Shown here piece after piece: positions 3,851 through 52,011 of a stretch of 64,000 nucleotides of DNA. The notes under the pieces were generated by a model. The model was given only the letters and a program-made list of their open reading frames with translations. It searched no databases and was not told where the DNA came from. Source of the stretch: Candidatus Peregrinibacteria bacterium (GTDB lineage: Bacteria; Patescibacteriota; Gracilibacteria; UBA1369); contig PLYH01000001.1 in the NCBI GenBank assembly GCA_003153355.1, positions 38,565 to 102,564 of the forward strand, in the 5' to 3' direction. The first letter of the stretch is position 1. Every line of letters begins with the position of its first letter. Both the position numbers and the translations under genes were made by a program.

Positions 3851-4120
3851 ATGAAATTCCTCATTGAAAAAAGATTTATCTTCCAGCAGCCGCCACAGGC
3901 GCAGGAACTTCAACAGGCACAAACGCCTGTCGTTGAAACAGGAAAAATCGCCCCAACTTCAAATTTAGATACGAACAAAGATATAGTTCAAAATTCAGCG
4001 GATAAAATCGGTGCCGAAGAAAAAGCAAAAGGTGGAAATACCGTGACGCGTGCTAACGAACTACTCGCAAATTTAGAAAATCTTCCGGTAGGAAGTACAG
4101 AAATCAAAAGAATAGGGTAA
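3851..4120 (+). CDS. Hypothetical small protein
   Basis: ORF in the gap between the coiled-coil gene and pyk, same strand. Low complexity Gln/Ala. Confidence 0.4.
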   Translation: MKFLIEKRFIFQQPPQAQELQQAQTPVVETGKIAPTSNLDTNKDIVQNSADKIGAEEKAKGGNTVTRANELLANLENLPVGSTEIKRIG

Positions 4121-36418: not shown

Positions 36419-37102
36419 CTAAGATTTTTTACCGGCCTGAAAATCCAGGACGCCTTGAGCCAAATCCATTAAAACTTCTTCCGGATTTGAAGATTTTGCT
36501 ACGCCGGAAGCCAACAAAACCCCGCTCGCGCCGAGCTCAAGCGACATCAAAACATCCCGTCCGGTTTTAATGCCCGCGCCCACCAAAACTTTGCCGTTAC
36601 CGATCATTTCAACTGCGTCCGTAATAATTTTCGGATTGGCATCAACGACTGAAACGTCGCCCCCGATAAGTTCGGGAGGTTCAACGGCCACAAAATCCGG
36701 ATCGAACATCGCAATGTCTTTTCCGGCCTGGACGGTATCTGCGCATAGAACAACCATAAAACCGATCTCATGTGCCTCTTGAACCGACGCCCGAATAACT
36801 TCGATTGAAACCTTTTTTTCCGCGTGATTTAAAAGCGAACCTACGGCTCCGGCATCTTTCAAAACATGAGGCGAAAGATGGCCCGTGTGAGCGCCGTAAT
36901 GAATAGGATCAAAATGCTGGGCCAGCACCGGAATCTTCACCGCGGCGACGACCATCCGTAAATCAATGGGCTGCACGGCTATGGCAAAAGAGACTCCTGT
37001 TTTTTCGGCAACTTTTTCATGAATCTTCGCGAGCTCTACGGCATGCTTTCCGGAAGCCTTTTCATAGGCTTTAAAATTAACGATGATGATCGGTTTTCTC
37101 AT
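36419..37102 (-). CDS. tpiA: Triosephosphate isomerase, archaeal-type
   Basis: PIIIVNFKAYEKASGKHAVELAKI, VLAQHFDPIHYGAHTGHLSPHVLKDAGAVGSLLNHAEKK, VAVEPPELIGG, VLVGAGIKTGRDV. Confidence 0.92.
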   Translation of the reverse strand: MRKPIIIVNFKAYEKASGKHAVELAKIHEKVAEKTGVSFAIAVQPIDLRMVVAAVKIPVLAQHFDPIHYGAHTGHLSPHVLKDAGAVGSLLNHAEKKVSIEVIRASVQEAHEIGFMVVLCADTVQAGKDIAMFDPDFVAVEPPELIGGDVSVVDANPKIITDAVEMIGNGKVLVGAGIKTGRDVLMSLELGASGVLLASGVAKSSNPEEVLMDLAQGVLDFQAGKKS

Positions 37103-37151
37103 AACAAAAAATAACAGGAACGGTTCCACTTTAGCTGAAGGTATTCCTACG

Positions 37152-37180
37152 TTGCAAGTTTCGCCGTTTTTTGCTATAAT
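37152..37180 (+). promoter_or_regulatory. Promoter TTGCAA-N17-(TGc)TATAAT
   Basis: Consensus -10 with extended TGn and 17-bp spacing to a TTGCAA -35; drives the giant-gene locus. Confidence 0.75.
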
Positions 37181-37225
37181 TTAAAGATTTATTACTGCCC
37201 AAAAACCAAAATAAACAAAAACACT

Positions 37226-37786
37226 ATGGAAAAATTGCTGTATTTGAAAAACAGGGAAGGAACGGCAGAAAAACAAAAATTCATTTTCCTGAGCATTGAA
37301 AAACCTTCGGGACAGGCTTCGGGAACCGGCACTTTAAGTCTTGCCGAAACCATGGAGAAAAAATTCAACACCAACCTGAACGTTGAAACCCCATTCAGTG
37401 CCGATTTCAATGCTGTGCTGGAAAATCTTGGGAACCAGGCAAAAGAAAAAAATCCCGAGCTCAGCGCCGAAAGCGTCAGACAAAACCTGACCGACACGCT
37501 CGATCCGGGAAAAACTCTCGATGAAATCCGTGATTATCTTCAGAGCAAAGGATGCAGGACTGCCGCCATCGTTGATGGAAGATTCAAATTCTTTGCCGGA
37601 CCAAAAGGTGTGCAGGAAATTTTTCTCTCGGAATTTTTCAAACCCCGCGAAGTAAAAATCGGCGGCGAAGGAACATACACCCATGAATACCTTCTCAAAA
37701 AAGAAGCAATGATGAGTCAGACGATGCAAGCCTTGCAAGCTCTCAAAGGGGAGCTTCCCGAAAATCCGCCTAATAAAATTTCCTAA
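37226..37786 (+). CDS. Hypothetical protein, first gene of the giant-protein locus
   Basis: 186-aa ORF behind a strong promoter, 9 nt from the next gene. Confidence 0.75.
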   Translation: MEKLLYLKNREGTAEKQKFIFLSIEKPSGQASGTGTLSLAETMEKKFNTNLNVETPFSADFNAVLENLGNQAKEKNPELSAESVRQNLTDTLDPGKTLDEIRDYLQSKGCRTAAIVDGRFKFFAGPKGVQEIFLSEFFKPREVKIGGEGTYTHEYLLKKEAMMSQTMQALQALKGELPENPPNKIS

Positions 37787-37795
37787 ATAACGTCT

Positions 37796-40700
37796 ATGTT
37801 CAACGAAAAACGCATACTTCTTTTCCTCAATCACGGGGAGCGCGCAAGCTTCAAGGGCAAGCGCATGGCTTACGCTGGACCAGAAAAACTTGAAGGTGCT
37901 CCGGCGGAAAGCAAAGAAACGCTGAAACCAGCTGAAAAGACTGAAGTGTTAAACGATCTCATGAAGAATGAATACAAAACCGAATGGGACGCCGCAAAAG
38001 ATCCGATCCAAAATTTACAAGAGTTCGCTGACGGAATTTATGGCGACAATAAGGGAAAAGCCGCCTATGCTAAAAAACTTCTCCAAGAAAGTCTCAAATG
38101 GGAAGACGCAACAACTTTCGCAGCCGACAAAGCAAAACTTTCCAAGGAAAAATGCACAATGGTGAACCTGAAAAACGGCAGCATGAAATTTTACAAGACC
38201 GACTCTTTCAAACCTGAAAACGAAATCAAACTTTCCACGCTGAACGCAGTCATCAGAACTCCAAAGGAAAGCGTCGTATCGCCTCCTCCGGTCGTTGAAA
38301 AAAAAGAATCGGATGAAGGGACCGACCAACAAAAATCCGCCCTTGAATTCTTTAAAAAAGCTTTTCCAGGCGCCAAACCCGACCAGATCCGCATCAGCGG
38401 AACCGAATCCCTGGGAGTCGGAACCAAAGCAGACTTAAACCTGCGGGGATATTTTGGGGGAGCAGAGATGAAGAACGCAGACCCGGACTATTATGGTGAA
38501 GACGGCAGCGGAAGATTCCTCAGCGGTGACAATATCGTTGATGACCAGGGCTACAGAACACATTATATTCCGGCTGAGATCCAGCAGGGATTTGTAGTTG
38601 AAGCTCCAAAGAAAAACGGGGTTATGGGCAAGTTCGTCCTGGCAAAACTCACCAAAAATGAAATCGGTTCAGGAAAAACTGACATTATGGGCTGGGTTGA
38701 AATCGGAAACCTGAGAAATAAAGGATATAAACACGAAGCGTTCGACAAAGTCCAAAACGTCTGGAGTAAAAAACCGGAATTTACCGATGAAGTCGTGGTG
38801 GTGGCGAGAAAATCTAATACGCTCGGAAATACCGTCCTTTATAATGACAAAGGTACTATGATCCGCATGATCGGAAAAGGCGAAGAAGTAATCACGGCGA
38901 ACAACATGGTAAGAAAAGTAGGGAATGAAGAATATATTAATGTAAGTTTTGAAAAAAGCGGAGCGAAAGACACGGGCTGGATAAGAAAAGACATGGTCCT
39001 TGAGCCTGCACCGGCTGAAGTAAAACCTCCTGAAGTAGCCTATAAAGAGGTAAAAGATGAACGTTCCGACGAAACGATGGTTGCAAAATATTACAACCGC
39101 GAAACCGGCAAAGTTCATTTTGACGGCGACAGGGCTGCAGAACAGACCATCACCATCAGCGATCTTTTCCCCGGAGCAAAAAAAGGCGATAAAATCCGCG
39201 TCAAACGCAACGGTGCTGGAAAAAGCATGGAAGCAAGCTTTGACCCAGATAAAACGTATACAAAATTCCTCAAAAACAAAACTGAAACCCGCAAAGGAAC
39301 TTTTGTTTATGGAAACGGAGTCCGCGTGGAAATTTACGACGGCGACGTCGTTCTGCCAAGATGGGAAACAGGCAAGTCAGCGGAAGGGCCAAAAGACCGC
39401 GCCTTTCTTGAAAAAGTCACGCTCAAAGCCGGAGACACCTATGAATCCATAGCTGACCGCGCGCTTTCCATGGACCCGATTATGAAGGCTTTTGAAAAAT
39501 CAAAATATAAATCCGTCGATGAACGCAGAGCCGCTTACGTCAAACTGCTCAAACAGTTTCAGGACGGAAATACGCTCTTCTTGGTTGTGCCGACTCCAAG
39601 TGAAGCAGGTGTGCCGACGGCCAACGAAGTAGCCGAAGTACGCTACGGTGAACGCGCCGAAAGTTACGCCGACAAATTCAGAAAAAACCGTGAAGCATCA
39701 GAAAAAGCTTTCCGCGGAAACATGAAGCAGTATCTGGACAACCAGGTGATGCTTGATAAAAGCTTGCTCGATGTCGTAGACGGAAACCTAAAAATGAAAT
39801 TTGCAACTGGGGAAGGATTTATGGGATTAGTAGATATTTTTAATGACAAAGAAGCATGGCTTAAACTCTGGAATGGCGAAGGATCAGTTGAAATAGCAGG
39901 ACTGGACCAATTGATTGCTGTTCTGAAACATCCGATCTTTGTTGAAGCCGGAATCACGCCCGAAAACGCTCGCGTAAAAATCATTGAACTCATTAGAGTC
40001 GGCAGAAACGACCGGGTGGATTTTGAAGATGTTTTGGATTCATTCAAAATCTATACCAATAAAAAAGGACAAACGGGCGATTTAGGCGACTTCAAAAATG
40101 AACTTGAAGAGAACTCCAAACTCATGAAAGCGAATGAAGGCGGATACAAAGCTTTCGAAGCAAAAAAAGGTCAGGGAATTTTAAAACAAACCCAGATCGT
40201 CAACGTTGTGACGGAAAAAAGAAAACTGGCGGAATCACAGGGCGATGATCCGGCAAAATATAAATCTTTTGCGGATTATGTCTGGCATCTGGTTGATGGA
40301 AATAAACAACAGTTCGACGACTATTTCAAAGCTGTTAAAGCTCTGGATGATCTGAAGGGCGATCCGGAATATCAGCAGTGGGGCAACTACCGCGAAGCGG
40401 CAAACCGCATCGGTTATTTAAACTACGTCCTTGAAGAAAGCGGTCAATTGCTCCAGGCCATCGGCCAGCTCAAAGTCAAAGAGTTCAAGGCTGCAGCCGC
40501 GAGTCCTGAAAAAATGGCTCCGGAAACTGGAAAATCTGTTGCCGCGATTGAAGATGTCTTCCGTGACTCTGATAAACCAAACTGGAGAAAAAACCATCCG
40601 GATGGCCGTTCATTCTCTTGGGAAGATGTTGTGGCCGGCACGAAAGAAAAAGATGAAGACACCACAGTGTACGGCAAATACTTTGATGAAAAAGCTCCGA

Positions 40701-43700
40701 TGCTCCGCATCCGCAGCCGTTTAAATAGATTCGGCGAAAAAGACCAGCCGCTCGACGGCGTTGAACGCATCAGCGAAACGGACACCGTGAACGAATTCAA
40801 TCGACTGATGAAAAAAGCTCTCCAACGTTTGATTTCCTGGAAGACCAACCCGGCGGCCGCTACGGAATTCATCAACAAATATACGGATTCCAACAAAGTT
40901 CAGCTTCCTCCAAAAAATAAAGGTGAAACCGATGAAGCATACGCTGTACGTGTCACGCCAATGTTAAGCAGTTCGCTGGATAGCGCATTCCAAACTCTCA
41001 AACTTGGCAGCCTCTCGCAACTTCAGCTCGAAAAAGATTCTCCTGCTCCGTTGGTTCAAAAAGTTCAGGATCAAAAAGATCTCATTAAAATAGGTTATTA
41101 CTTTGATTCCCGCGACGAAGAAAAAGGTCTTACCGAATCCACCGAAACAAAAGAGGCTCAGCTTTCCATGAATCCGATGATCAGAAAAGTTCAGGAAATT
41201 GCCATTGCCAAAGGCTACCCCAAAGAAAACGCAAAGAAAATCGAAAGCGTTTTCATCGGCGGTATCGGACTCAAAATCGATACGACCAAACCGCTCAGTC
41301 AGGCGTTTGGAGCCGGTCTTGGATCAGGCGTCGATCTTGGCGACGGATTTGTTTTAATGGTCGGCATAGGCGTGGACAGCAGCGGACCGGTCTTAGGTGT
41401 CGCCGTACGCAAAGGCATTAAACTCGGCGCTGAAAAAGACAAAGAACTCGGCATTACGGGAGGCGTAGGGGTCGGGCTCACTGGCCCAAGCATCGTAGGC
41501 GGGGTAGATTACTCATTCCCGATCTCGGACAGTCTTGATATGAAAATGTTTGCAGGAGGCAGCGTGGGAATTTTGGTATCTGGCGTGGGCGTCGGAATCG
41601 GCATCGGCAAAAACTATGAAACAGCCCAGAAAAATCTTGAAAAACAAATCGGCGGAATGGACACCAAAGAGATCGACGCGGAAAAAGATCCGGACAAAAA
41701 ATATCTGATGATCATCAACAATCCGCAGATCGGTCCATACTTCAGATCAGCGGCTCAGGAATTTGAAAACGAAAAAGATCAAAAATCCGTCGTCCTGGAT
41801 CTTTACGAGACATGGCGTGCAAACGTCTCGGGAGAAGCAGTAAGACAAAACTCAGCGCCGTTTATTTCAGGAGGAGGCGTTTTTGCGGGCATGCTGTTAA
41901 TTGGCGGCCTGCCGGTACCGTACGTCGGACCTTACCTCAGCTTCACTATCGGGAAAGATACATATGTCTACCGTCGCCAGTCGGAATCTTCCAAAGAAAT
42001 GGACAAGATTTCTCAAGAAAAAGCACAGGCAAGGTCGATGGACGATTTGAAAAAGAAATATCCGGACAGCAATCTGGCCGTAAAAGAAACAAAAGCCGCT
42101 GAAAGCGGCAATATTGGAACGATGGCCAATGGAGATAAAGGTATTCGTCTCAAAAACTTTGAGGTTGATCTTGCTCCGTTTAAAGACGAACCAAGTATTG
42201 ATAAATATAACGAGGCTTTGAGACCTTACGACATGAAACTGGTTCCGGATGCCGCAACCGGCCTTCTGGAATTCCAGGTTTTTGGAGCTTTGGGCAATCT
42301 CCAAATCCTGATGGACCCGGGAATGGAACACAAAGGTCTTATTTTGAAAGACGGAAAAGTGTTCCTGGCTCCCGGAGCAAAACCTGAACTCTTTATCACC
42401 CGTGAAGAGTTCTTCACACCATTCCCAAAGAAAGGTTCTCCGATGAACACCATTGTCACTATTTCAGACACACCGAAACGCACCCGTTCAATGATCCAAA
42501 GTGAAGTTGCGGAACAGGGTTCATATCTTTACCGCAAGGCCGGAATGCAGTGGGAAGTTATTTCCACTCCGAACGTTTCCAACAACAATGTTATGGATGC
42601 TGCAGGTTATGCCAAATACAAAGGAAACTTCGAAACCTTTAATGAAAAAGTCGAAGGCTTCGACGAAACAAAATGGAAAGAATATGAAGCCAAGGTCAAA
42701 GCCTTACCGTTCATTATGGAAGCCGAACCTGATCTTACCGACGAAAAACGAACACAGCTCAAAAAATTCAGCAAAGATTTCTTCAATTTCAACGTCGGTA
42801 AATACGGTGAATACACTACGGTAAAACCGGGTGACACGGAAGCAGTCATCAACGAAAAACGCCGCAATCTTGCTGCCCTGATCCAGACGGAAGCACAGAA
42901 AGATGCTCCGCCAAAAGGCAGAGGTATGGGAGCAAAACTCAGCGACCTTCAGATGAACTTTGTGATGTCGGAACTCATGGACGTGAGTTTCATGGAACTT
43001 GAAAAAGCTCCGGATAAACGCGCTCGCTTTGAACAAAACCTTGAATGGTCAAAACAGGCAGTACTTTTACCGTTCTTTCGCAAGAAGATCGCTGACCTTA
43101 ATGCCAAAGGACTCAATATTAAGAGCACTCCTGAGCAGCTGGTAGACCTTGTTTCCCGACGTTTGCTTGAGGACGTCAAAGACGAAGAACTCGGCAAACC
43201 GGGACAACCTTTAGGACCAAACTGGATGTTCAGTTCAGTCGCAGGCGCCATCGGTCTGGGTCTCCGCGGTGTTGCGGGATACATCACCCAGGATAAGTAC
43301 GGCGTCCTCGGTCTTCATGAAGAAGATTTGAGCAAACCGGGACTTGAAGGCGATCTTGCAAAAGTCATCCTTGAACTTGAAAGTCCGCTCGATACTCAAA
43401 ACGACAAAGCTTTCGCCGAATCGATAATGGCGAAAAAACTCATCGCGATGCCGGGTATGTGGTTTGTGCTTGGCGATGCCAATGCCAACCAGGCCTTGGA
43501 CGGAATGCAAAAAGCTTTGAAAGGCGAAGCCGTCGGCGACAACGCAGGCTTCCAGGAATTCAAAAAAATCGCCCAAGGCATCCGCGACACACAGCTCCGC
43601 GGAGGCAATGCTTTTATTTACAACGCGCCAAACGGCAACTCGTTTGAATTCAGATTGAACACCAAAGTCGCAGACATGGCACACGCGCGCTGCGGAAATG

Positions 43701-44053
43701 CATCGTTCGCCGTGGCAGAAGATATTCAGATTTTCGCGAGAATGGCCAAAGAAACAGGGCTCATCGTGGCAGGTGCTTCAACATCAACCGGCACCGTGTC
43801 TCCTGAAACCACCGCAAGATTTATCAGCTTTGGTTTAGCAGGCGTCGTTACCATCGAAACCGGCGCACAGGAAGCGCCTCCACCTCCACCTGGCAACAAA
43901 AACAATCAACCAGTCGGCGGCCCGGGCGGCAGCACCAAAGTTGGAGGCGGCACGGACACCGGCGGCGGAAAAGGCGGAACAGTACCTCCAAAAGTCGGCG
44001 GCGGCAATCCTCCTCCACCGGGCGGAACGAACAACCCTGACCAATCCGGCTAA
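37796..44053 (+). CDS. Giant 2085-aa protein with SH3-like/LysM-like segments, Gly-rich barrel-like core and Pro/Gly-rich C-terminal tail
   Basis: Single uninterrupted ORF. Core: FVLMVGIGVDSSGPVLGVAVRKGIKLGAEKDKELGITGGVGVGLTGPSIVGGVDYSFPISDSLDMKMFAGGSVGILVSGVGVGIGIG. Tail ends NPDQSG. Confidence 0.85.
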   Translation: MFNEKRILLFLNHGERASFKGKRMAYAGPEKLEGAPAESKETLKPAEKTEVLNDLMKNEYKTEWDAAKDPIQNLQEFADGIYGDNKGKAAYAKKLLQESLKWEDATTFAADKAKLSKEKCTMVNLKNGSMKFYKTDSFKPENEIKLSTLNAVIRTPKESVVSPPPVVEKKESDEGTDQQKSALEFFKKAFPGAKPDQIRISGTESLGVGTKADLNLRGYFGGAEMKNADPDYYGEDGSGRFLSGDNIVDDQGYRTHYIPAEIQQGFVVEAPKKNGVMGKFVLAKLTKNEIGSGKTDIMGWVEIGNLRNKGYKHEAFDKVQNVWSKKPEFTDEVVVVARKSNTLGNTVLYNDKGTMIRMIGKGEEVITANNMVRKVGNEEYINVSFEKSGAKDTGWIRKDMVLEPAPAEVKPPEVAYKEVKDERSDETMVAKYYNRETGKVHFDGDRAAEQTITISDLFPGAKKGDKIRVKRNGAGKSMEASFDPDKTYTKFLKNKTETRKGTFVYGNGVRVEIYDGDVVLPRWETGKSAEGPKDRAFLEKVTLKAGDTYESIADRALSMDPIMKAFEKSKYKSVDERRAAYVKLLKQFQDGNTLFLVVPTPSEAGVPTANEVAEVRYGERAESYADKFRKNREASEKAFRGNMKQYLDNQVMLDKSLLDVVDGNLKMKFATGEGFMGLVDIFNDKEAWLKLWNGEGSVEIAGLDQLIAVLKHPIFVEAGITPENARVKIIELIRVGRNDRVDFEDVLDSFKIYTNKKGQTGDLGDFKNELEENSKLMKANEGGYKAFEAKKGQGILKQTQIVNVVTEKRKLAESQGDDPAKYKSFADYVWHLVDGNKQQFDDYFKAVKALDDLKGDPEYQQWGNYREAANRIGYLNYVLEESGQLLQAIGQLKVKEFKAAAASPEKMAPETGKSVAAIEDVFRDSDKPNWRKNHPDGRSFSWEDVVAGTKEKDEDTTVYGKYFDEKAPMLRIRSRLNRFGEKDQPLDGVERISETDTVNEFNRLMKKALQRLISWKTNPAAATEFINKYTDSNKVQLPPKNKGETDEAYAVRVTPMLSSSLDSAFQTLKLGSLSQLQLEKDSPAPLVQKVQDQKDLIKIGYYFDSRDEEKGLTESTETKEAQLSMNPMIRKVQEIAIAKGYPKENAKKIESVFIGGIGLKIDTTKPLSQAFGAGLGSGVDLGDGFVLMVGIGVDSSGPVLGVAVRKGIKLGAEKDKELGITGGVGVGLTGPSIVGGVDYSFPISDSLDMKMFAGGSVGILVSGVGVGIGIGKNYETAQKNLEKQIGGMDTKEIDAEKDPDKKYLMIINNPQIGPYFRSAAQEFENEKDQKSVVLDLYETWRANVSGEAVRQNSAPFISGGGVFAGMLLIGGLPVPYVGPYLSFTIGKDTYVYRRQSESSKEMDKISQEKAQARSMDDLKKKYPDSNLAVKETKAAESGNIGTMANGDKGIRLKNFEVDLAPFKDEPSIDKYNEALRPYDMKLVPDAATGLLEFQVFGALGNLQILMDPGMEHKGLILKDGKVFLAPGAKPELFITREEFFTPFPKKGSPMNTIVTISDTPKRTRSMIQSEVAEQGSYLYRKAGMQWEVISTPNVSNNNVMDAAGYAKYKGNFETFNEKVEGFDETKWKEYEAKVKALPFIMEAEPDLTDEKRTQLKKFSKDFFNFNVGKYGEYTTVKPGDTEAVINEKRRNLAALIQTEAQKDAPPKGRGMGAKLSDLQMNFVMSELMDVSFMELEKAPDKRARFEQNLEWSKQAVLLPFFRKKIADLNAKGLNIKSTPEQLVDLVSRRLLEDVKDEELGKPGQPLGPNWMFSSVAGAIGLGLRGVAGYITQDKYGVLGLHEEDLSKPGLEGDLAKVILELESPLDTQNDKAFAESIMAKKLIAMPGMWFVLGDANANQALDGMQKALKGEAVGDNAGFQEFKKIAQGIRDTQLRGGNAFIYNAPNGNSFEFRLNTKVADMAHARCGNASFAVAEDIQIFARMAKETGLIVAGASTSTGTVSPETTARFISFGLAGVVTIETGAQEAPPPPPGNKNNQPVGGPGGSTKVGGGTDTGGGKGGTVPPKVGGGNPPPPGGTNNPDQSG

Positions 44054-44071
44054 TATTTCTAAAAATAAACT

Positions 44072-44272
44072 ATGAAAAAAAACAATCAACAAATCGGCTG
44101 GGTTCTTGCAATTTTAGCAGTCATCATCGTGATTATATTCATGGTGATGTCTCAACAAAATTCAAACAGTCAGGTGCCGACAGGCGGTGGACAGCAAGGA
44201 ACAGTTGCTCCTCTTATAACATCGCCAAGTCAACAAAGCGGTGCCGCAGTGAATCCGGATCAGTCTGGTTAA
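44072..44272 (+). CDS. 66-aa single-TM protein with Gly/Gln/Pro-rich tail ending NPDQSG
   Basis: TM segment IGWVLAILAVIIVIIFMVM; tail shared with the upstream giant protein. Confidence 0.75.
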   Translation: MKKNNQQIGWVLAILAVIIVIIFMVMSQQNSNSQVPTGGGQQGTVAPLITSPSQQSGAAVNPDQSG

Positions 44273-44296
44273 TACAAATTTTATACCTCCATCAAA

Positions 44297-47200
44297 ATGA
44301 AAAATAAAAATCTAACAATCTGGCTCGTAGCGCTCACTGCTCTCGTTGAGCTTTTAGTTGCGCCGTTGCCAGTTTCTGCAGATTACCATCCGGTGTCTCG
44401 TCAGGCATGCGACCTTGGGATATTTCCTTTTGATCCGGCAGGTACAAAATTTTATGGAAGCGCCGCCGACAATTACATCAACGGCAGACCTTCGGAATTC
44501 CCAGGTGGAACGATTACTGATGCAATTTGTAACATTGCTATTGGCGGACATCTTACGATCCCTACAGTAACGCCATATACGACCCAATCATATAATCCTC
44601 AGCCAGTTACCGACACCGGCGACATTCCTTTGAAATCCGGTTCGCAAAACACCTACGTGCCAATCGGCCTTCATCAGCACAACTATTATAACGACTCTGC
44701 TGAAGAAACATCCGGACAGCAATATTTCTATAAATCACTCATTTCCAAATTCGAAATCGATTTTGCGCCTGATGTGGCATCAAATATCGATTTAAGCAAA
44801 ATAACCTGTATCACCGACGTTCCTGCGGGATTTTCCGCGGACGACCTTTCTGCAGACGGCGTTGCAAACTGTAATGGTTACGCACCGCATCTTTGGGGCG
44901 GAACTGAAGTAAGAAACAGCGCAAGCGGAGTCGTATGGACATTTGGTGAAAACGATCCTTCTTCTAAACCAAGAATTTTCGGATATAATCCTGATCTTGA
45001 TTCGCTCATCGGTTTTAATTCCAAACCGGACGCAAACCGAAACTTCTTTGCTTACGTACAGCTTCCAACACGGGAAGATGTTCCTGCGGATCTTTGGAGT
45101 TCAAGTACTTCATCAAAAGTCTTGCTCCGCGATTACGCAATTAAAAGGACAACGAACATGAGTTATCTGAACGACGATAATTACTGCAGCGTACCAAAAG
45201 ATTACGACACGCATTGGTGCTCAATGGACTGGAAAAGACCGGCACAATTCCAGACAGGAACACCCTATGGAAGCTCAACAGCCAACTACTATTGGTCCCC
45301 GATCGGCAGCACAGGCGTTGTCTGGAGAAAATCAGCACCTACTCCGGAAAAATGTACAAGCTTTACATTAACTCCTTTGACCTTAACCAATCCGGGACAA
45401 ACGACGCTGACCGGACACATCACCACGGATAAAGGACTAAGCCACAACGCAACGATTACCTGGACACAATCCGGCGGAACATTGGACACTTATCCAACGC
45501 AAAGCGCGGTAACGAATGCAGACATTATCAACAAATTCACCATTCCTAATCCGGGCAACGATGCAAATGTCACAGCAGAAGTCACCGCTATCAACGACGG
45601 CGTTGATCTTGGAACGTGTGCCGGTTCAAAACAAACAGCAAAGACCCCTCCTCCGACCTGTACAGGTTTGACGATCAGTCCGACCGGACCGTTCGTGGAA
45701 TCAGATTTGCCGCAAACTATTAATGTAAGTTCAGCAACGACTGGCGGTCTCAATCTCGACTATAAATGGACTTCAACCGCACCAAGTAAATTCACATACG
45801 ACGGCAATTCCGGAACATATTATGACACCGATACATCAACCACGCTGAACTACACCCTGCCAACCATCAGTGCACCGCAAACAATAACTGTCACGGCAGT
45901 GGATAAATCAAACCACGCCACGGAATTTGCAGGAACATGTCAGGCAAACATAAAAATCACTGTTCCTCCTCCTTTCTGTTATGACGTCGTTCCAAATTCA
46001 ACCACTCTTTCCAACACCGGCAGTGACATCTTCAGTGCGAAAGTGAACTACAGTGACGGCATCGACCGCAACACGACAGTAACCTGGACTCCTACAAACC
46101 TTAACTTAACTCCTCCGACCAGTCCGGAAACCAAAACCAGCGCCACCAACTTTGTAAAAGTGACCAATCCGGTCGTCTCGGGAAACCCAGTCTCATTGCA
46201 GATGCAGGTCACGGGCGTACCTGCGGGCGTGATCCTGCCACCGGGTGGCGATTGTGCAACCGGCAAAACCGCAAGTTCAGGCGGCGGCAATATGTGCCAG
46301 AATTTGAACTCCGGTTATTTGGGAACAACTATTTCAGGCGGCAGCAGCCAGCTTCTCAATCCAAATCCTACCAACGTCAGTTCTCCAAATCCTTCACAGG
46401 TAAGCTGGACAGTAAGCGGCAGTGCAACGCTTTCACCGAATCCGGCAAATAACGTGGCTTGTTACGATTATTTGGGCCCTGATTTAAGTAATACATCATT
46501 TACCACCATCGTGGGTTGCAGCTACTTTTATAAAACATCATCTGTTCAGGGAACGAGCGGATCAGTAAGCATGAGCGCGGTTCCAAACCTTGGAAGCGTA
46601 GCAGCTTGTAACCAGACAATCACTTTCAACAATCCGATCACGCCTCCGGGCGGCGGTTCATGTACAGGTTTGAGCTGGAGCCAGGTAGGCGGCCAGATCT
46701 GCGTCAGTCCTATCCCAAGCGGATCATTCAGCGGAAGCTATCAATGGACCATCGGTTCAACAACCTTCAATGACGGCACATGCCAAACCGTTCCGCCAAA
46801 CACGAGCGTAAACGTCCAGGCAATCGGAGCTCCTGCATGTCAGGTCAATATTCCTCCGCAACCACCACAGAATAATCAATGTACGATGGGACCTCCAAGC
46901 TACAATAATGGAGAGCTTTGTCTTACCAACGTCCAGAATTATGTCGGACCGTTTACATGGCAAATCGGCAGCGGCGCTCCGTTCTCAAACGGACTCTGCC
47001 AGCCCGTTCCGCTAAACACTCCGGTAACTGTTACTGGACCAACACCGGCTTGTAGCATCAACAACTACACCCCTCCGGTTCCACCAAGCCCTCCAACGTT
47101 CACCAAAACGGTTGAAATCGTAAATCTTCCGGGGGCGAAACCAATTTCTGGGGAAACAGGCGTGAAGAGCGGATTTAATAATCCGTTAACGCTCGTCCCA

Positions 47201-48658
47201 AGCAACATCAACGGCGGTAAAACCGGAACGATCGACGGCAAAGTCGTCAAATACACCCTCACCTTTACTCCGACGAACGACAAAACCGATGCAACTATCA
47301 CCGACCCGATGAACAGCGGAAAAATCCAAGGCTACATCAATGGATCATCAACAACCGGAGGCGACATTAAATATGACGACACATTCTTGATCAACGGCGT
47401 GGTTCAATGTCCTGCCAGTGGACCGGCCACCGACTGTTACACTCTTACAGGAGATCAAAATACCGTATTGCCGATCATCCAATTATCAAGCCTCAATGCC
47501 GGACAAGTCGTCACGGTAACTTACCAGGGCATTGTTGAAAACAGTTCAATCAGCGACAATAGTTGTTTGACCGGCAGTATTTGTGAAGAAAAATATACGA
47601 ACATTGCTACTGCAAACTACGCCGTACCTTCAATGACTCCGGGAACATTAAGCGCATCGGCAGCCGTCCAAAGTTTCTGCCAGTATATCTTGACCCGCGC
47701 TTCCGGCGACATTTATCTTGAAACCAGCCTGCAGTACGGACAAGACATTTCGGTCTGCTCACAATACAAAAACAGCACCGGTCTGATCATCACTCCGGGC
47801 GCGCCTCCTGAACAAACCGCGCCAAGTACAGGTGCAGCAGCTTCCCTGAACGTCGGTCACGAAATCTGCAACCTCGACAAATTCGCCGTGAACTTAACAA
47901 CCCAAACGGGTAAGACGGAAACCCTCTATGGCTCACAGGTTGCTTCAAACCTTTCCAGTGAAATCTGTGAAGTCAGACTCCGCCCAGGCCAGGATTGGGG
48001 CAAGAGCCAGATCGCTTCCAGCATTGAAGAAAACAAAACCCGCGTCGCCCGCTGGACTCCGAATTTGACTGCAGGAATGACCATCCAAAGTTTGAACGAT
48101 CTTCCGCAAACATCAACCGGCGTCTACCACATAAAAGGAAATCTTACGATTGATCCTTCACAGGCTGTTCCAGATTCAATCACCAATGCTTTCATTTCCG
48201 ACGGTGACGGCGCAAAAACCTTCATCGTAGAAAACGGCGACCTGAATATTAACAGCAACATCAACTACGGCCCTTGCAAAAATCCGAGCGGCGTTTGCAC
48301 CGTACGCGATACGGCTTCACTGGCTTTCATCGTCTTAAACGGAAACATTAATATAAGTCCTAAAGTCACGCAGATGTCCGGCGTCTACTTTGTCCAGCAG
48401 GGTAAAGATACCAATGGAAATCTTGTCGACAACGGCAAACTCGTTTCAACCGGTGAAGCAAACACTTATGTTCCTTTGACGGTTTTCGGATCGATCTACG
48501 GCGACATTCAGGATCTGTTGAGTCACCGCAAATTCTCCGGCGATCCGGCGTCCAACGGCGGTTCAATCGTCATCCGCTTTGATGAACGCATCATCCTCAA
48601 CACACCTCCTGGATTACAGGACATTCTCCAGTTGAGCGAAAACCAGGTGGCCCAATAA
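44297..48658 (+). CDS. 1453-aa secreted surface protein: Ig-like Cys-bounded domains, four-Cys repeats, DUF11-like domain
   Basis: Signal peptide MKNKNLTIWLVALTALVELLVAPLPVSA; repeated Cys-bounded beta domains; C-terminal FDERIILNTPPGLQDILQLSE. Confidence 0.85.
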   Translation: MKNKNLTIWLVALTALVELLVAPLPVSADYHPVSRQACDLGIFPFDPAGTKFYGSAADNYINGRPSEFPGGTITDAICNIAIGGHLTIPTVTPYTTQSYNPQPVTDTGDIPLKSGSQNTYVPIGLHQHNYYNDSAEETSGQQYFYKSLISKFEIDFAPDVASNIDLSKITCITDVPAGFSADDLSADGVANCNGYAPHLWGGTEVRNSASGVVWTFGENDPSSKPRIFGYNPDLDSLIGFNSKPDANRNFFAYVQLPTREDVPADLWSSSTSSKVLLRDYAIKRTTNMSYLNDDNYCSVPKDYDTHWCSMDWKRPAQFQTGTPYGSSTANYYWSPIGSTGVVWRKSAPTPEKCTSFTLTPLTLTNPGQTTLTGHITTDKGLSHNATITWTQSGGTLDTYPTQSAVTNADIINKFTIPNPGNDANVTAEVTAINDGVDLGTCAGSKQTAKTPPPTCTGLTISPTGPFVESDLPQTINVSSATTGGLNLDYKWTSTAPSKFTYDGNSGTYYDTDTSTTLNYTLPTISAPQTITVTAVDKSNHATEFAGTCQANIKITVPPPFCYDVVPNSTTLSNTGSDIFSAKVNYSDGIDRNTTVTWTPTNLNLTPPTSPETKTSATNFVKVTNPVVSGNPVSLQMQVTGVPAGVILPPGGDCATGKTASSGGGNMCQNLNSGYLGTTISGGSSQLLNPNPTNVSSPNPSQVSWTVSGSATLSPNPANNVACYDYLGPDLSNTSFTTIVGCSYFYKTSSVQGTSGSVSMSAVPNLGSVAACNQTITFNNPITPPGGGSCTGLSWSQVGGQICVSPIPSGSFSGSYQWTIGSTTFNDGTCQTVPPNTSVNVQAIGAPACQVNIPPQPPQNNQCTMGPPSYNNGELCLTNVQNYVGPFTWQIGSGAPFSNGLCQPVPLNTPVTVTGPTPACSINNYTPPVPPSPPTFTKTVEIVNLPGAKPISGETGVKSGFNNPLTLVPSNINGGKTGTIDGKVVKYTLTFTPTNDKTDATITDPMNSGKIQGYINGSSTTGGDIKYDDTFLINGVVQCPASGPATDCYTLTGDQNTVLPIIQLSSLNAGQVVTVTYQGIVENSSISDNSCLTGSICEEKYTNIATANYAVPSMTPGTLSASAAVQSFCQYILTRASGDIYLETSLQYGQDISVCSQYKNSTGLIITPGAPPEQTAPSTGAAASLNVGHEICNLDKFAVNLTTQTGKTETLYGSQVASNLSSEICEVRLRPGQDWGKSQIASSIEENKTRVARWTPNLTAGMTIQSLNDLPQTSTGVYHIKGNLTIDPSQAVPDSITNAFISDGDGAKTFIVENGDLNINSNINYGPCKNPSGVCTVRDTASLAFIVLNGNINISPKVTQMSGVYFVQQGKDTNGNLVDNGKLVSTGEANTYVPLTVFGSIYGDIQDLLSHRKFSGDPASNGGSIVIRFDERIILNTPPGLQDILQLSENQVAQ

Positions 48659-48684
48659 AACCTTCCACAAAAACATGATATAAG

Positions 48685-48714
48685 AAAACCCCTCCTTACA
48701 AAGAGGGGTTTTTG
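48685..48714 (+). terminator. Rho-independent terminator after the giant locus
   Basis: AAAACCCCTC / GAGGGGTTTT stem followed by T-tract. Confidence 0.85.
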
Positions 48715-48823
48715 TTTATGTTCTGTCATATCTAGCCATGTCCGTCAAATATGGACGCGCACACAAACTTCCTGCTAGAGTAAGATCTCAAAAGTGCTAT
48801 TTCCGCAATATATCACCGACAGC

Positions 48824-49807
48824 ATGCCCCAAGCCAATCTTCATCTTTTTTACGGCGAAGACACCTACTCCTCCTGGCACAAAAGCCAGTACTGGAAAAA
48901 AGAGTTCGAAAAAAAATTCGGCGACATTAACGTGCTGATGTTTGATGGTGAAAAATTGACGTACGGCGATTTTATTGAAGCGGTTGATTCAGTCCCCTTC
49001 CTGGGCGAAAAAAAACTTGTGATCATCCGCGATTTTTTGCGCGACGGCAAAGACGACGACCAAAAATCCATAGCGGAAAAACTTCCGGACATCGCGGATT
49101 TCAGTCTGGTTGTTTTTCTGGAGCAGGAAAAACCCGATGCCAGAACAACGCTGTTTAAAACCCTCAAAAAAATAGCGACGCTGCAGGAGTTCGATCCTTT
49201 GATCGGACCAAAACTCACGGCATGGATTCAAACCAGAGTGCAGGAACGCGGCGGCAGGATAGGGATGCGTGAAGCCAACCAGCTGGCAGAAACCGTCGGA
49301 CCAAACTTGTGGCAGATGACCCAGGAAATTGAAAAACTCACACTGTATGCCGAAGGCCAGCCTATCCCAAGCGAAGCGATTGAAAGCATGACGAGCCCGA
49401 ATCTTTCCACGTCAATTTTCAAACTCACGGACTATCTTGGACAAAAAAACGCCAAAGCTGCTCTTAAAACCTTGGATGTTCTTTTGGAAAGCGGCGAAGA
49501 GATCGTCAAAAGCATGTTCATGATCGTGAGGCATTTCAGAATTTTGATTCAGGTGCGGGCATGTATGGAACAAAAAATGGAAAAAACCGCCATCAACCAA
49601 AAACTGAAAGAACACCCTTTTGTGATTATGACGGCCATGGGCCAGAGTAAAAATTTCAAAAGCGCGATGCTGGCGAAAACCTACGGCAAACTCCTGGCGA
49701 TCGATACGAACATGAAAAGCGGCAAAATCCACATGACCGCAGGCGACAACACTGAACTGCGCCTGGCCCTGGAAAAACTGATCGTTGAACTGTGCCGGGT
49801 TGAATAA
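48824..49807 (+). CDS. holA: DNA polymerase III delta subunit (HolA)
   Basis: NLHLFYGEDTYSSWHKSQYWKKEF, FLGEKKLVIIRDFL, LAETVGPNLWQMTQEIEKLTLYA. Start trimmed to MPQANLH. Confidence 0.88.
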   Translation: MPQANLHLFYGEDTYSSWHKSQYWKKEFEKKFGDINVLMFDGEKLTYGDFIEAVDSVPFLGEKKLVIIRDFLRDGKDDDQKSIAEKLPDIADFSLVVFLEQEKPDARTTLFKTLKKIATLQEFDPLIGPKLTAWIQTRVQERGGRIGMREANQLAETVGPNLWQMTQEIEKLTLYAEGQPIPSEAIESMTSPNLSTSIFKLTDYLGQKNAKAALKTLDVLLESGEEIVKSMFMIVRHFRILIQVRACMEQKMEKTAINQKLKEHPFVIMTAMGQSKNFKSAMLAKTYGKLLAIDTNMKSGKIHMTAGDNTELRLALEKLIVELCRVE

Positions 49808-49872: not shown

Positions 49873-52011
49873 TTAAAACTTCCCGAGGGTGTGAAGTTTG
49901 TAAATAATTTCTGCAACTTCACGGCGCAACGTGTATTGCGTTGGAAACAGATCTGCACCGACGAAGAGGCTGTTATCCATTGAATACTTTGCATACCCGC
50001 TGAACCACTGTCCTGCTGCAACGTCAGCATAAGACAGACTGCTGTTGCTTGGCATCGGATCGCTCAGGTTGCGGAGCAGCAACGCGAGGAATTCAACGCG
50101 GTCTACTGCACGGCCCGGTCTGTAGAAACCTGCATCAGCGCCGGACTGGTAACCGGTGATCATGCCGATGCCTTTTCCATCACAGACATATTGGAATGCC
50201 CATGATACCGGAGTCACATCCGGGAACGGATTAACACTGTGGCAATAATCAGTGGATGCATTAAATTTATTGAAGGTCGTAAGCACAATCTTTGCAACCT
50301 GGTCGCGCTGGAGATCGGCATTTGGAGCAAACGTACCATCCGGATTGCCGGTCATCGCACCCGATCCTTTGACATATGTGAACGCTGCGCAATCAGGATC
50401 GGTTGACGGTACATCGGTAAAGCCGTCACATTGGCTGCCTGATGGCGGAGGCGGTGGAGTAACACTGCCCACACTCACAGTTACATTCGTAGATTTTGAA
50501 TCGGTTCCTCCCGCGTTGGTTGCCGTAACTTTAGCGGTATAAACACCGTCGGCAACAACATTGCCGGTGGTGTCTTTTCCATCCCAGGTTGTAAGAATCG
50601 AACCAGTGGATTTGCTTTGATTATCAATCAATCTTTTCATTTCAACGCTGCTTCCGTTCAAAATGGAAACAGTGACATTCGCATTGGCACTGAGGTTGAA
50701 AGAAATTGTCGTGGTGTCAGCATTGCCGTCGCCGTTCGGACTGATCGTTGCCGGAGCAGCGCTCAAACCCGTAATCGATGGAGCAGAAACACTCGCAGCC
50801 GCTGCTTCAAATGCACCCGGATCATATTGGGCGGTGCCGTTACCGTCGCCGTCGAGCGGACGGGCAGTGCCGAAATAATCGTTGGCCACACCACTTTCGG
50901 TTGTACCTTTATCGATACAAGTTGAACCGCTTGCCAGTTTATAACTGTTTGGATCCGTGCCTGATCCGGAAAATTGAGGATCGCAACTTAGGTTATTCCC
51001 GCTCATCGCAGGATCGCTGGAGTTGCTGAAAAGTGCATTGTAATCAAAAACGGACGTATCGCCTCCGTTATGAACAAGTGTGGAATTGCCTACTGTGTAA
51101 GCAATAAGATTGTTATCGATCGTGTTGCCATTGCCGAGAGCAACGATCGCCGCATTACTTGCGCCCGAATTAATCTGGTTGTGCGCCAGAGTGTTATTCA
51201 CGAACTGGCAGCTGCCTCCCGGAATAACAAGAGCGTCAGCGGTATCGCCTAAAATAAAATTATTATAGACGAGCGCACCGTTGCTGCATTTTAAAGAACC
51301 GCCTCCACCATTGGAACTGTTGGCATAGTAAAGATTATTATATGCCGTAACTTTACCGTTATAATTTGAAACAAGGCCGCCGTTCGCGGTATTGCTGTAA
51401 AATTTATTTGCGCTTACTTCCGCCGTATTGGAACCGGTGATGATAATGGCCAATGCAACGGCGCTCGTGGTGATATTATTGTGAATAACATTGTTCGTAA
51501 CGGAAAAATCAAGAGTGGTAGCACCGTTATTCTGAATAAAAATCCCGCCCCCGTTCAGACCTGAGATATCAAACCCGTCCATTTTTCCAGCAACCGAAGT
51601 AACATCCAAGAGACCCGCTGCTCCGCCTGTCTGAATATTTGAAGGTGTTGATGAAGGAGCCTGGGTGGAAAACGCGCTGTTCCATCCGCCGGAAAGATTA
51701 AAACTCTTTGAATAAGTAGAGCCATCAACATTCCACGGAAGAGTTTCAGCGGAATAGTTCCCGCCCGCGACCCAAATGTTGTCGTAATCGGAATTCGCCG
51801 GAGTTTCCAGATAATTCACGGCGTCGGTAATCTTCTGAAATGGATGAGCAAAGCTTCCATCTCCAGCCGGAGCTGCACTGGCGTCAACGTAGACACCGCA
51901 GCTGTGGAGCGTATGACAGTTAAGAATAGGAGGAATAATTGCCGATGCGCTGCTCGCTCCAATTGAAAAGAGCATGAGCGCACTCCCCATGGAGGCGATC
52001 AATTTTTTCAT
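49873..52011 (-). CDS. Secreted right-handed beta-helix protein with FlgD-like Ig domain and three C-terminal SLH motifs
   Basis: Signal peptide; Asn-rich helix repeats; SPNGDGNADTTTISFNLSANANVTVSI; C-terminal FTDVP.../FPDVTPVSWAFQYV.../YADVAAGQWFSGYAKYS SLH motifs. Confidence 0.87.
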   Translation of the reverse strand: MKKLIASMGSALMLFSIGASSASAIIPPILNCHTLHSCGVYVDASAAPAGDGSFAHPFQKITDAVNYLETPANSDYDNIWVAGGNYSAETLPWNVDGSTYSKSFNLSGGWNSAFSTQAPSSTPSNIQTGGAAGLLDVTSVAGKMDGFDISGLNGGGIFIQNNGATTLDFSVTNNVIHNNITTSAVALAIIITGSNTAEVSANKFYSNTANGGLVSNYNGKVTAYNNLYYANSSNGGGGSLKCSNGALVYNNFILGDTADALVIPGGSCQFVNNTLAHNQINSGASNAAIVALGNGNTIDNNLIAYTVGNSTLVHNGGDTSVFDYNALFSNSSDPAMSGNNLSCDPQFSGSGTDPNSYKLASGSTCIDKGTTESGVANDYFGTARPLDGDGNGTAQYDPGAFEAAAASVSAPSITGLSAAPATISPNGDGNADTTTISFNLSANANVTVSILNGSSVEMKRLIDNQSKSTGSILTTWDGKDTTGNVVADGVYTAKVTATNAGGTDSKSTNVTVSVGSVTPPPPPSGSQCDGFTDVPSTDPDCAAFTYVKGSGAMTGNPDGTFAPNADLQRDQVAKIVLTTFNKFNASTDYCHSVNPFPDVTPVSWAFQYVCDGKGIGMITGYQSGADAGFYRPGRAVDRVEFLALLLRNLSDPMPSNSSLSYADVAAGQWFSGYAKYSMDNSLFVGADLFPTQYTLRREVAEIIYKLHTLGKF

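Follow-up and report, generated by a model that had tools for sequence, protein, structure and literature searches.

An open question about epibiotic or predatory CPR bacteria is how they construct their surface and keep hold of other cells, and progress is hampered by giant proteins that belong to no known family. The available parts of two published accounts report giant surface proteins in the predator Vampirococcus and related CPR bacteria (PMC8080830) and note that genomes of Ca. Peribacter encode large exported proteins as well as type IV pili (PMC4736985); in those parts, neither a locus like the one analyzed here nor a matching of protein tails is found described. Other comparable proteins are exported proteins of Patescibacteria, encoded by an uncharacterized gene beside pilM in type IV pilus operons, and, by predicted fold, the MSCRAMM/CNA-type collagen-binding adhesins (ACE, CNM, and CNA).

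Here, we analyzed a window of 64,000 nucleotides from a Candidatus Peregrinibacteria bacterium, in which a sequence-only reading had pointed to an undescribed four-gene surface or secretion locus (Table 1). With the giant surface proteins of Vampirococcus lugosii and Ca. Peribacter riflensis, the locus shares very large proteins in lineages with small genomes. Our data are sequence only, mostly MAGs with simple gene calling, and statistics for the window's own genome cover 863 kb of its 1456 kb.

Table 1. Features of the locus and tagged proteins (window positions unless a locus is named; SP, signal peptide).
Feature	Position	Strand	Basis or remark
tpiA, divergent, upstream of operon	36419-37129
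Promoter, extended -10, TTGCAA-N17-TATAAT with TG extension	37152..37180	+	Sequence; architecture recurs in related loci
ORF1, 186 aa, no SP	37226..37786	+	Stand-alone relative of ORF2 N-terminal domain (ORF2 aa ~39-179)
ORF2, 2085 aa, giant, no SP	37796..44053	+	ORF call; ortholog family
ORF2 N-terminal tag region	37796..37885	+	Basic/aromatic stretch, then KRMAY (37859-37873), then hydrophilic linker
ORF2 glycine-rich amphipathic beta-meander, aa ~1171-1393	41306..41974	+	Predicted porin-like strands, low confidence
ORF2 C-terminal tail peptide NPDQSG	44033..44050	+	Sequence
Small membrane protein, 66 aa	44072..44272	+	Single strong TM helix at 44093-44149; predicted N-in/C-out
Small membrane protein tail NPDQSG	44252..44269	+	6/6 codons differ from ORF2 tail
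ORF4, 1453 aa, secreted	44297..48658	+	Sec signal peptide ~44297-44383, cleavage ...PVSA|DY
ORF4 Ig/adhesin-like domain, aa ~970-1145	47204..47731	+	AF2 model m467205350cf7; Foldseek
ORF4 C-terminal beta domain, aa ~1276-1443	48122..48625	+	Profile A5; type-IV-pilus-operon-associated elsewhere in phylum
Intrinsic terminator, 11-pair stem then T-run	48684..48713	+	Hairpin in sequence
holA, downstream of operon	48794-49807
Tagged SP-less proteins, own genome (G000)	L156:6812-11593, L156:10046, L161:4494-9455, L146:17742-19219; window 3851-4120
Tagged SP-less proteins, G025	L172:2-10678, L181:14850-17399, L181:610-915		L172: three consecutive tagged genes, incl. L172:6701

Layout and distribution of the tpiA-holA locus

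The four closely spaced genes lie on the same strand exactly where the sequence-only reading had placed them, with gaps of 9, 18, and 24 bp, and the strong extended -10 promoter and the closing terminator that it had named are both present. Consensus sites of this kind are not more numerous in the region than in shuffled sequence (11 versus 11.7 and 22 versus 19.1), so the consensus alone proves nothing. The promoter is real, because 18 of 25 related loci carry one in an equivalent position, 24-58 bp ahead of the first gene, in which an extended -10 is preceded by a TTG-like -35 with 17-bp spacing. This one conserved promoter would drive the whole operon. The leaders of the operon genes are A-rich and have no clear Shine-Dalgarno sequence (37206-37226, 44054-44072, and 44273-44297).

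With ORF2 alone as query, an initial search detected related proteins in 21 of the 99 genomes. The ORF2 profile matches 65 of the 89 genomes of the Peregrinibacteria order (49 of the 62 good genomes) and the ORF4 profile 73 (53 of 62); judged by these sequence matches, the unit is no local oddity and is present in most genomes of the order. Among 241 sampled genomes of the class, G373 is the only one outside the order to match ORF2, and it does so only in the beta-meander region. Stretches resembling the ORF2 core also lie within huge frames, of 3226 aa in this genome (G373:C8:128691-129410) and of 6983 aa in another (G030:C25:60298-61098). A scan of viral contigs found no relative of the locus on any of them, and a scan of named genomes with ORF2 as query gave no match; in a search with a closer alignment, the closest named loci were those of Candidatus Peregrinibacteria, such as isolates SJ737, UBA1369, and KTt_bin-1911.

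In the recurring arrangement, a divergent tpiA is followed by ORF2, with ORF1 ahead of it in some genomes; ORF4 and holA come next, and in many genomes a gene for a small membrane protein or lipoprotein stands between ORF2 and ORF4. The tpiA-holA interval is the usual position of the giant pair, and it allows the locus to be found even where sequence search fails: at four loci (L120, L121, L123, and L128) the ORF2 profile fails on the called proteins, yet a protein of 1.5-2.1 kaa without signal peptide occupies the place of ORF2. The four-gene unit described by the sequence-only reading holds in the window and only partly beyond it. ORF1 is found in 5 genomes of the window's family (orthologs only in G009, G007, G011, and G001), and the small gene, whose exported product is present in most families outside f14, is missing from f14 and part of f1 and is therefore dispensable there. 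This coming and going, together with the very fast evolution of ORF2 (orthologs of about 1480-2580 aa, only about 20% identical), is what one would expect if the genes were unrelated large surface proteins that share promoter and position merely by descent. We consider this very unlikely, given that ORF2 and ORF4 remain neighbors in an unchanged order even between highly diverged families and that the tails described below co-vary.

ORF2 and ORF4 match no Pfam, NCBIfam, or PDB sequence family, either as single proteins or as family alignments (16 and 21 members); weak matches, such as Pertactin for ORF1 (E=0.076) and eIF-6 for ORF2 (E=0.094), were dismissed as chance. The sequence-only reading had called the locus a candidate for an undescribed one, and had asked for a synteny search and for a look at whether the genes fail to co-occur in relatives or all four fall into known unrelated families. 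Neither was found, because the proteins have no known family and the genes co-occur syntenically across the order, and the description is supported. The ORF4 frame of one genome (G053:C64:11351-12781) has two in-frame TAA codons and is therefore a broken copy or an assembly error.

The encoded proteins and their matched tails

ORF1 is, by HMM comparison, a stand-alone copy of the N-terminal domain of ORF2 (E=3e-6 in the window, 1e-6 in L030, and 3e-8 in L035). ORF4 comprises a conserved N-terminal domain (aa ~26-350), a divergent middle region, an Ig-like part, and a C-terminal beta domain, and its orthologs have signal-peptide-like N-termini. Structure prediction, which the sequence-only reading had recommended, gave an Ig/adhesin-like domain in ORF4, whose model resembles collagen-binding MSCRAMM domains (Foldseek, best E=3.3e-4, with low TM-scores). 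The C-terminal domain occurs widely across the phylum, in 63 of 287 genomes, and when we inspected the 1.5-kb flanks of 18 domain loci outside the order, pilM lay at most 1.5 kb away in 9 of them; the domain gene lies upstream of pilM-N-B-T-C at one locus (L112) and with pilC and prepilins at another (L125). This links ORF4, by type though not by position, to the surface proteins associated with type IV pili. Together, the signal peptide, the predicted adhesin-like domain, and the pilM-linked domain make a cell-surface placement of ORF4 well supported. In G186, an ORF4-type C-terminal domain (C2, ~316084-316581; L125:6046-18999) closes an open frame of 25,343 aa, partly N/X in the sequence, that neighbors pilC and prepilins and may encode a giant adhesin associated with the pilus.

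A surface location is likewise well supported for the small protein, which has a TM helix or, in some other families (L036, L119-L121, L245, and L247), is a lipoprotein. The cell-surface assembly suggested by the sequence-only reading is thus upheld for these two proteins, and extends to ORF2 only by inference from the C-terminal peptide. ORF2 has no signal peptide, in the window or in any ortholog, and no confident TM segment, which points against a surface location and would fit a cytoplasmic one; the window sequence offers no longer start (ATG, GTG, or TTG).

Structure prediction was less conclusive for ORF2. The model of its core (AF2 mbd3f6eade0c3, pTM 0.44) has long amphipathic strands at the beta-meander, with low pLDDT there, and better-predicted beta and helical domains beyond them; across 20 orthologs the meander is enriched in glycine and in hydrophobic alternation. 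Porins are the top Foldseek matches of the strands in the PDB, with E values of at least 0.09 that are not significant, and the barrel is a low-confidence lead only. A Foldseek comparison with viral structures yielded nothing at E<=0.001. One could read the barrel as a pore that a released or host-directed ORF2 opens in another cell, ORF4 serving for adhesion, as part of a predatory or epibiotic way of life. Porin-like strands appear in the model and among the weak matches. Omp85 (PF01103) is absent from the window's own genome, against matches in 7 of 14 control genomes, which means that any barrel would differ from ordinary outer-membrane proteins. In addition, predators that have giant surface proteins exist among related CPR bacteria, Vampirococcus for example, according to the available part of PMC8080830. 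We nevertheless regard a pore as improbable: the barrel itself is uncertain, no toxin family is matched, and near-universal conservation at a fixed housekeeping position better fits a core part of the envelope.

In the window, ORF2 and the 66-aa protein end in the same six residues, and this ending occurs on no other protein in the 863 kb of the genome that were analyzed. The peptide varies between genomes, yet the two tails tend to match within a genome, as in GATPADI/GATPDDI, PQSTGIIDPSGF/PQSSGNIDTTGF, AAGRR/AAGRR, and GTGSL/GTGDL. Across 19 pairs, matched tails scored 10.6 on average, versus -0.15 for mismatched ones (p=5e-6 by permutation, and 1.5e-5 when tails were shuffled within families only; an earlier test on 12 pairs gave p of about 1e-5). 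Three pairs do not match (G005, G056, and G014), and three match weakly (G020, G021, and G060).

Both tails are the final codons ahead of the next operon gene, so the similarity might be a by-product, either of a duplicated ORF2 3' end or of a DNA signal for translational coupling, with no docking involved. The codons make this quite unlikely. Of 36 identical tail residues, 24 are encoded by different codons, with no codon shared in the window (0 of 6, all synonymous), in G053 (0 of 5), or in G051 (0 of 4); therefore, selection keeps the peptide and not the DNA. By contrast, in a survey of 2854 nearby same-strand gene pairs from three genomes, all further cases of identical six-residue tails were either paralogs or repeat DNA with identical codons. 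Readthrough of the ORF2 stop codon into the small gene, which is in the same frame, was rejected, as further in-frame TAA stops follow. In G025, two tandem paralogous small TM proteins (L183, minus-strand offsets 12189 and 12489) both end in PTPTGN.

Since the tail of the small protein is predicted to be extracytoplasmic, most clearly in the lipoprotein versions, a common partner outside the membrane, co-evolving with both, is the simplest explanation of a matched tail on ORF2. A tail shared with an exported small protein argues for one docking partner, and hence for a probable role of ORF2 at the surface despite its lack of a classical signal. On the contrary reading, ORF2 stays in the cytoplasm beneath the membrane as a giant scaffold or regulator, and ORF4 is exported separately; the tails would be read on the inner side, for example by a chaperone or protease, either ahead of export or with no export at all. 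Besides the missing signal peptides, the Lys/Glu-rich segments of ORF2 speak for it, as does another tagged protein without signal peptide that has GGDEF domains, a cytoplasmic signalling fold. However, the lipoprotein forms of the small protein put the tail outside, and in three of the lipoprotein pairs examined (G044, G029, and G048) the matched tail is the best-scoring one. On balance, we find a cytoplasmic ORF2 rather unlikely, though worth serious consideration.

N-terminal tag and proposed mechanism

Roughly two thirds of 28 listed ORF2 orthologs carry an N-terminal tag made up of a basic/aromatic stretch, the motif R[FLM][VI][YF], and then a linker of hydrophilic character; several non-homologous proteins without signal peptide carry it as well. 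The motif, which we defined after seeing ORF2, is 6-fold enriched at N-termini relative to interior windows (p=1e-5; p=8e-4 without ORF2, and p=0.014 when chance-looking matches are also removed). A tagged protein in G025 (L181:14850, family f14) has lysozyme and GDSL domains, and the usual substrate of proteins of this type lies outside the cytoplasm. Another (L161) has two GGDEF domains and stands beside a pilB homolog. To call the tag a proven export signal would be too strong, as the lysozyme-type proteins of the order (PF18013; L218, L219, L221, L224, L229-L232, and others) have no signal peptide whether tagged or not. By its sequence distribution it is possibly an export-related motif, a hypothesis and a weaker lead than the tails.

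We propose, with belief and doubt about evenly balanced, that the locus is a core, vertically inherited envelope operon in which the tails of ORF2 and of the small protein dock to one partner and ORF2 acts outside with ORF4. The giant protein would be stationed at the outer face of the cytoplasmic membrane and cooperate there with the secreted, adhesin-like ORF4; it would get outside by a non-classical route, possibly marked by the N-terminal tag. Both tails would be ligands of a single binding site, for which the simplest place is ORF4 or some other partner that co-evolves with them; as the third conserved member, ORF4 is the natural candidate for the receptor. The small protein may hold or pre-occupy this site, and the likely role of the whole would be attachment to other cells or surface building.

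More tentatively, and as a possibility to which we give clearly less weight, the locus might exemplify an undescribed route to the surface, in which tagged giants without signal peptide are received through a genome-specific C-terminal docking peptide, identical on a membrane-anchored small protein, by a co-evolving receptor. Export of ORF2, if it occurs, would point to a route that needs no classical signal peptide. The matched C-terminal peptide offers a testable hook, which should fish out the shared binding partner.

Comparison with known surface systems

Several systems resemble the locus in part. The barrel-like model recalls outer-membrane porins (NanC, KdgM, and OmpF) in fold, weakly; the match is not significant, and the strands are embedded in a 2085-aa, soluble-looking protein. 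Outer-membrane beta-barrel proteins in general differ from ORF2 in having a signal peptide and a BAM-type Omp85, and two-partner secretion (type Vb) in requiring an Omp85-type TpsB transporter, which the window's genome lacks. Unlike sortase-anchored LPXTG proteins, ORF2 and ORF4 end in ...NNPDQSG and ...LSENQVAQ, respectively, with no C-terminal TM segment. No SLH domain was found in ORF1-4. An SLH protein with FlgD-type Ig and weak beta-helix matches lies just beyond holA (window 49873-52011, minus strand), and a second, with PATR repeats, elsewhere in the genome (L109:13845-17588, minus strand).

As for pilus systems, neither ORF4 nor its family matches the Neisseria_PilC Pfam model of the PilC/PilY1 tip adhesin at E<=0.1, and the window locus is not in a pilus operon; only relatives of its C-terminal domain elsewhere are. 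A T2SSE/pilT-like match elsewhere in the window's genome (G000:C2:187520-188392, L255) is broken by one in-frame TAA. With the pilM-adjacent proteins, ORF4 shares the C-terminal beta domain and its common ending, typically R-[YF]-D-x-R-[IL]-x-x-N-x-P-P. Those proteins sit in pil operons, whereas ORF4 sits in an operon of its own beside ORF2 and adds the conserved N-terminal domain and Ig-like parts. Any likeness to MSCRAMM/CNA adhesins lies in the predicted Ig-like fold of one domain, with low TM-scores; ORF4 has neither a sequence family match nor an LPXTG anchor. Overall, in its apparent mode of action the locus comes closest to a surface-adhesin system that is assisted by a membrane-anchored protein, built from undescribed families.
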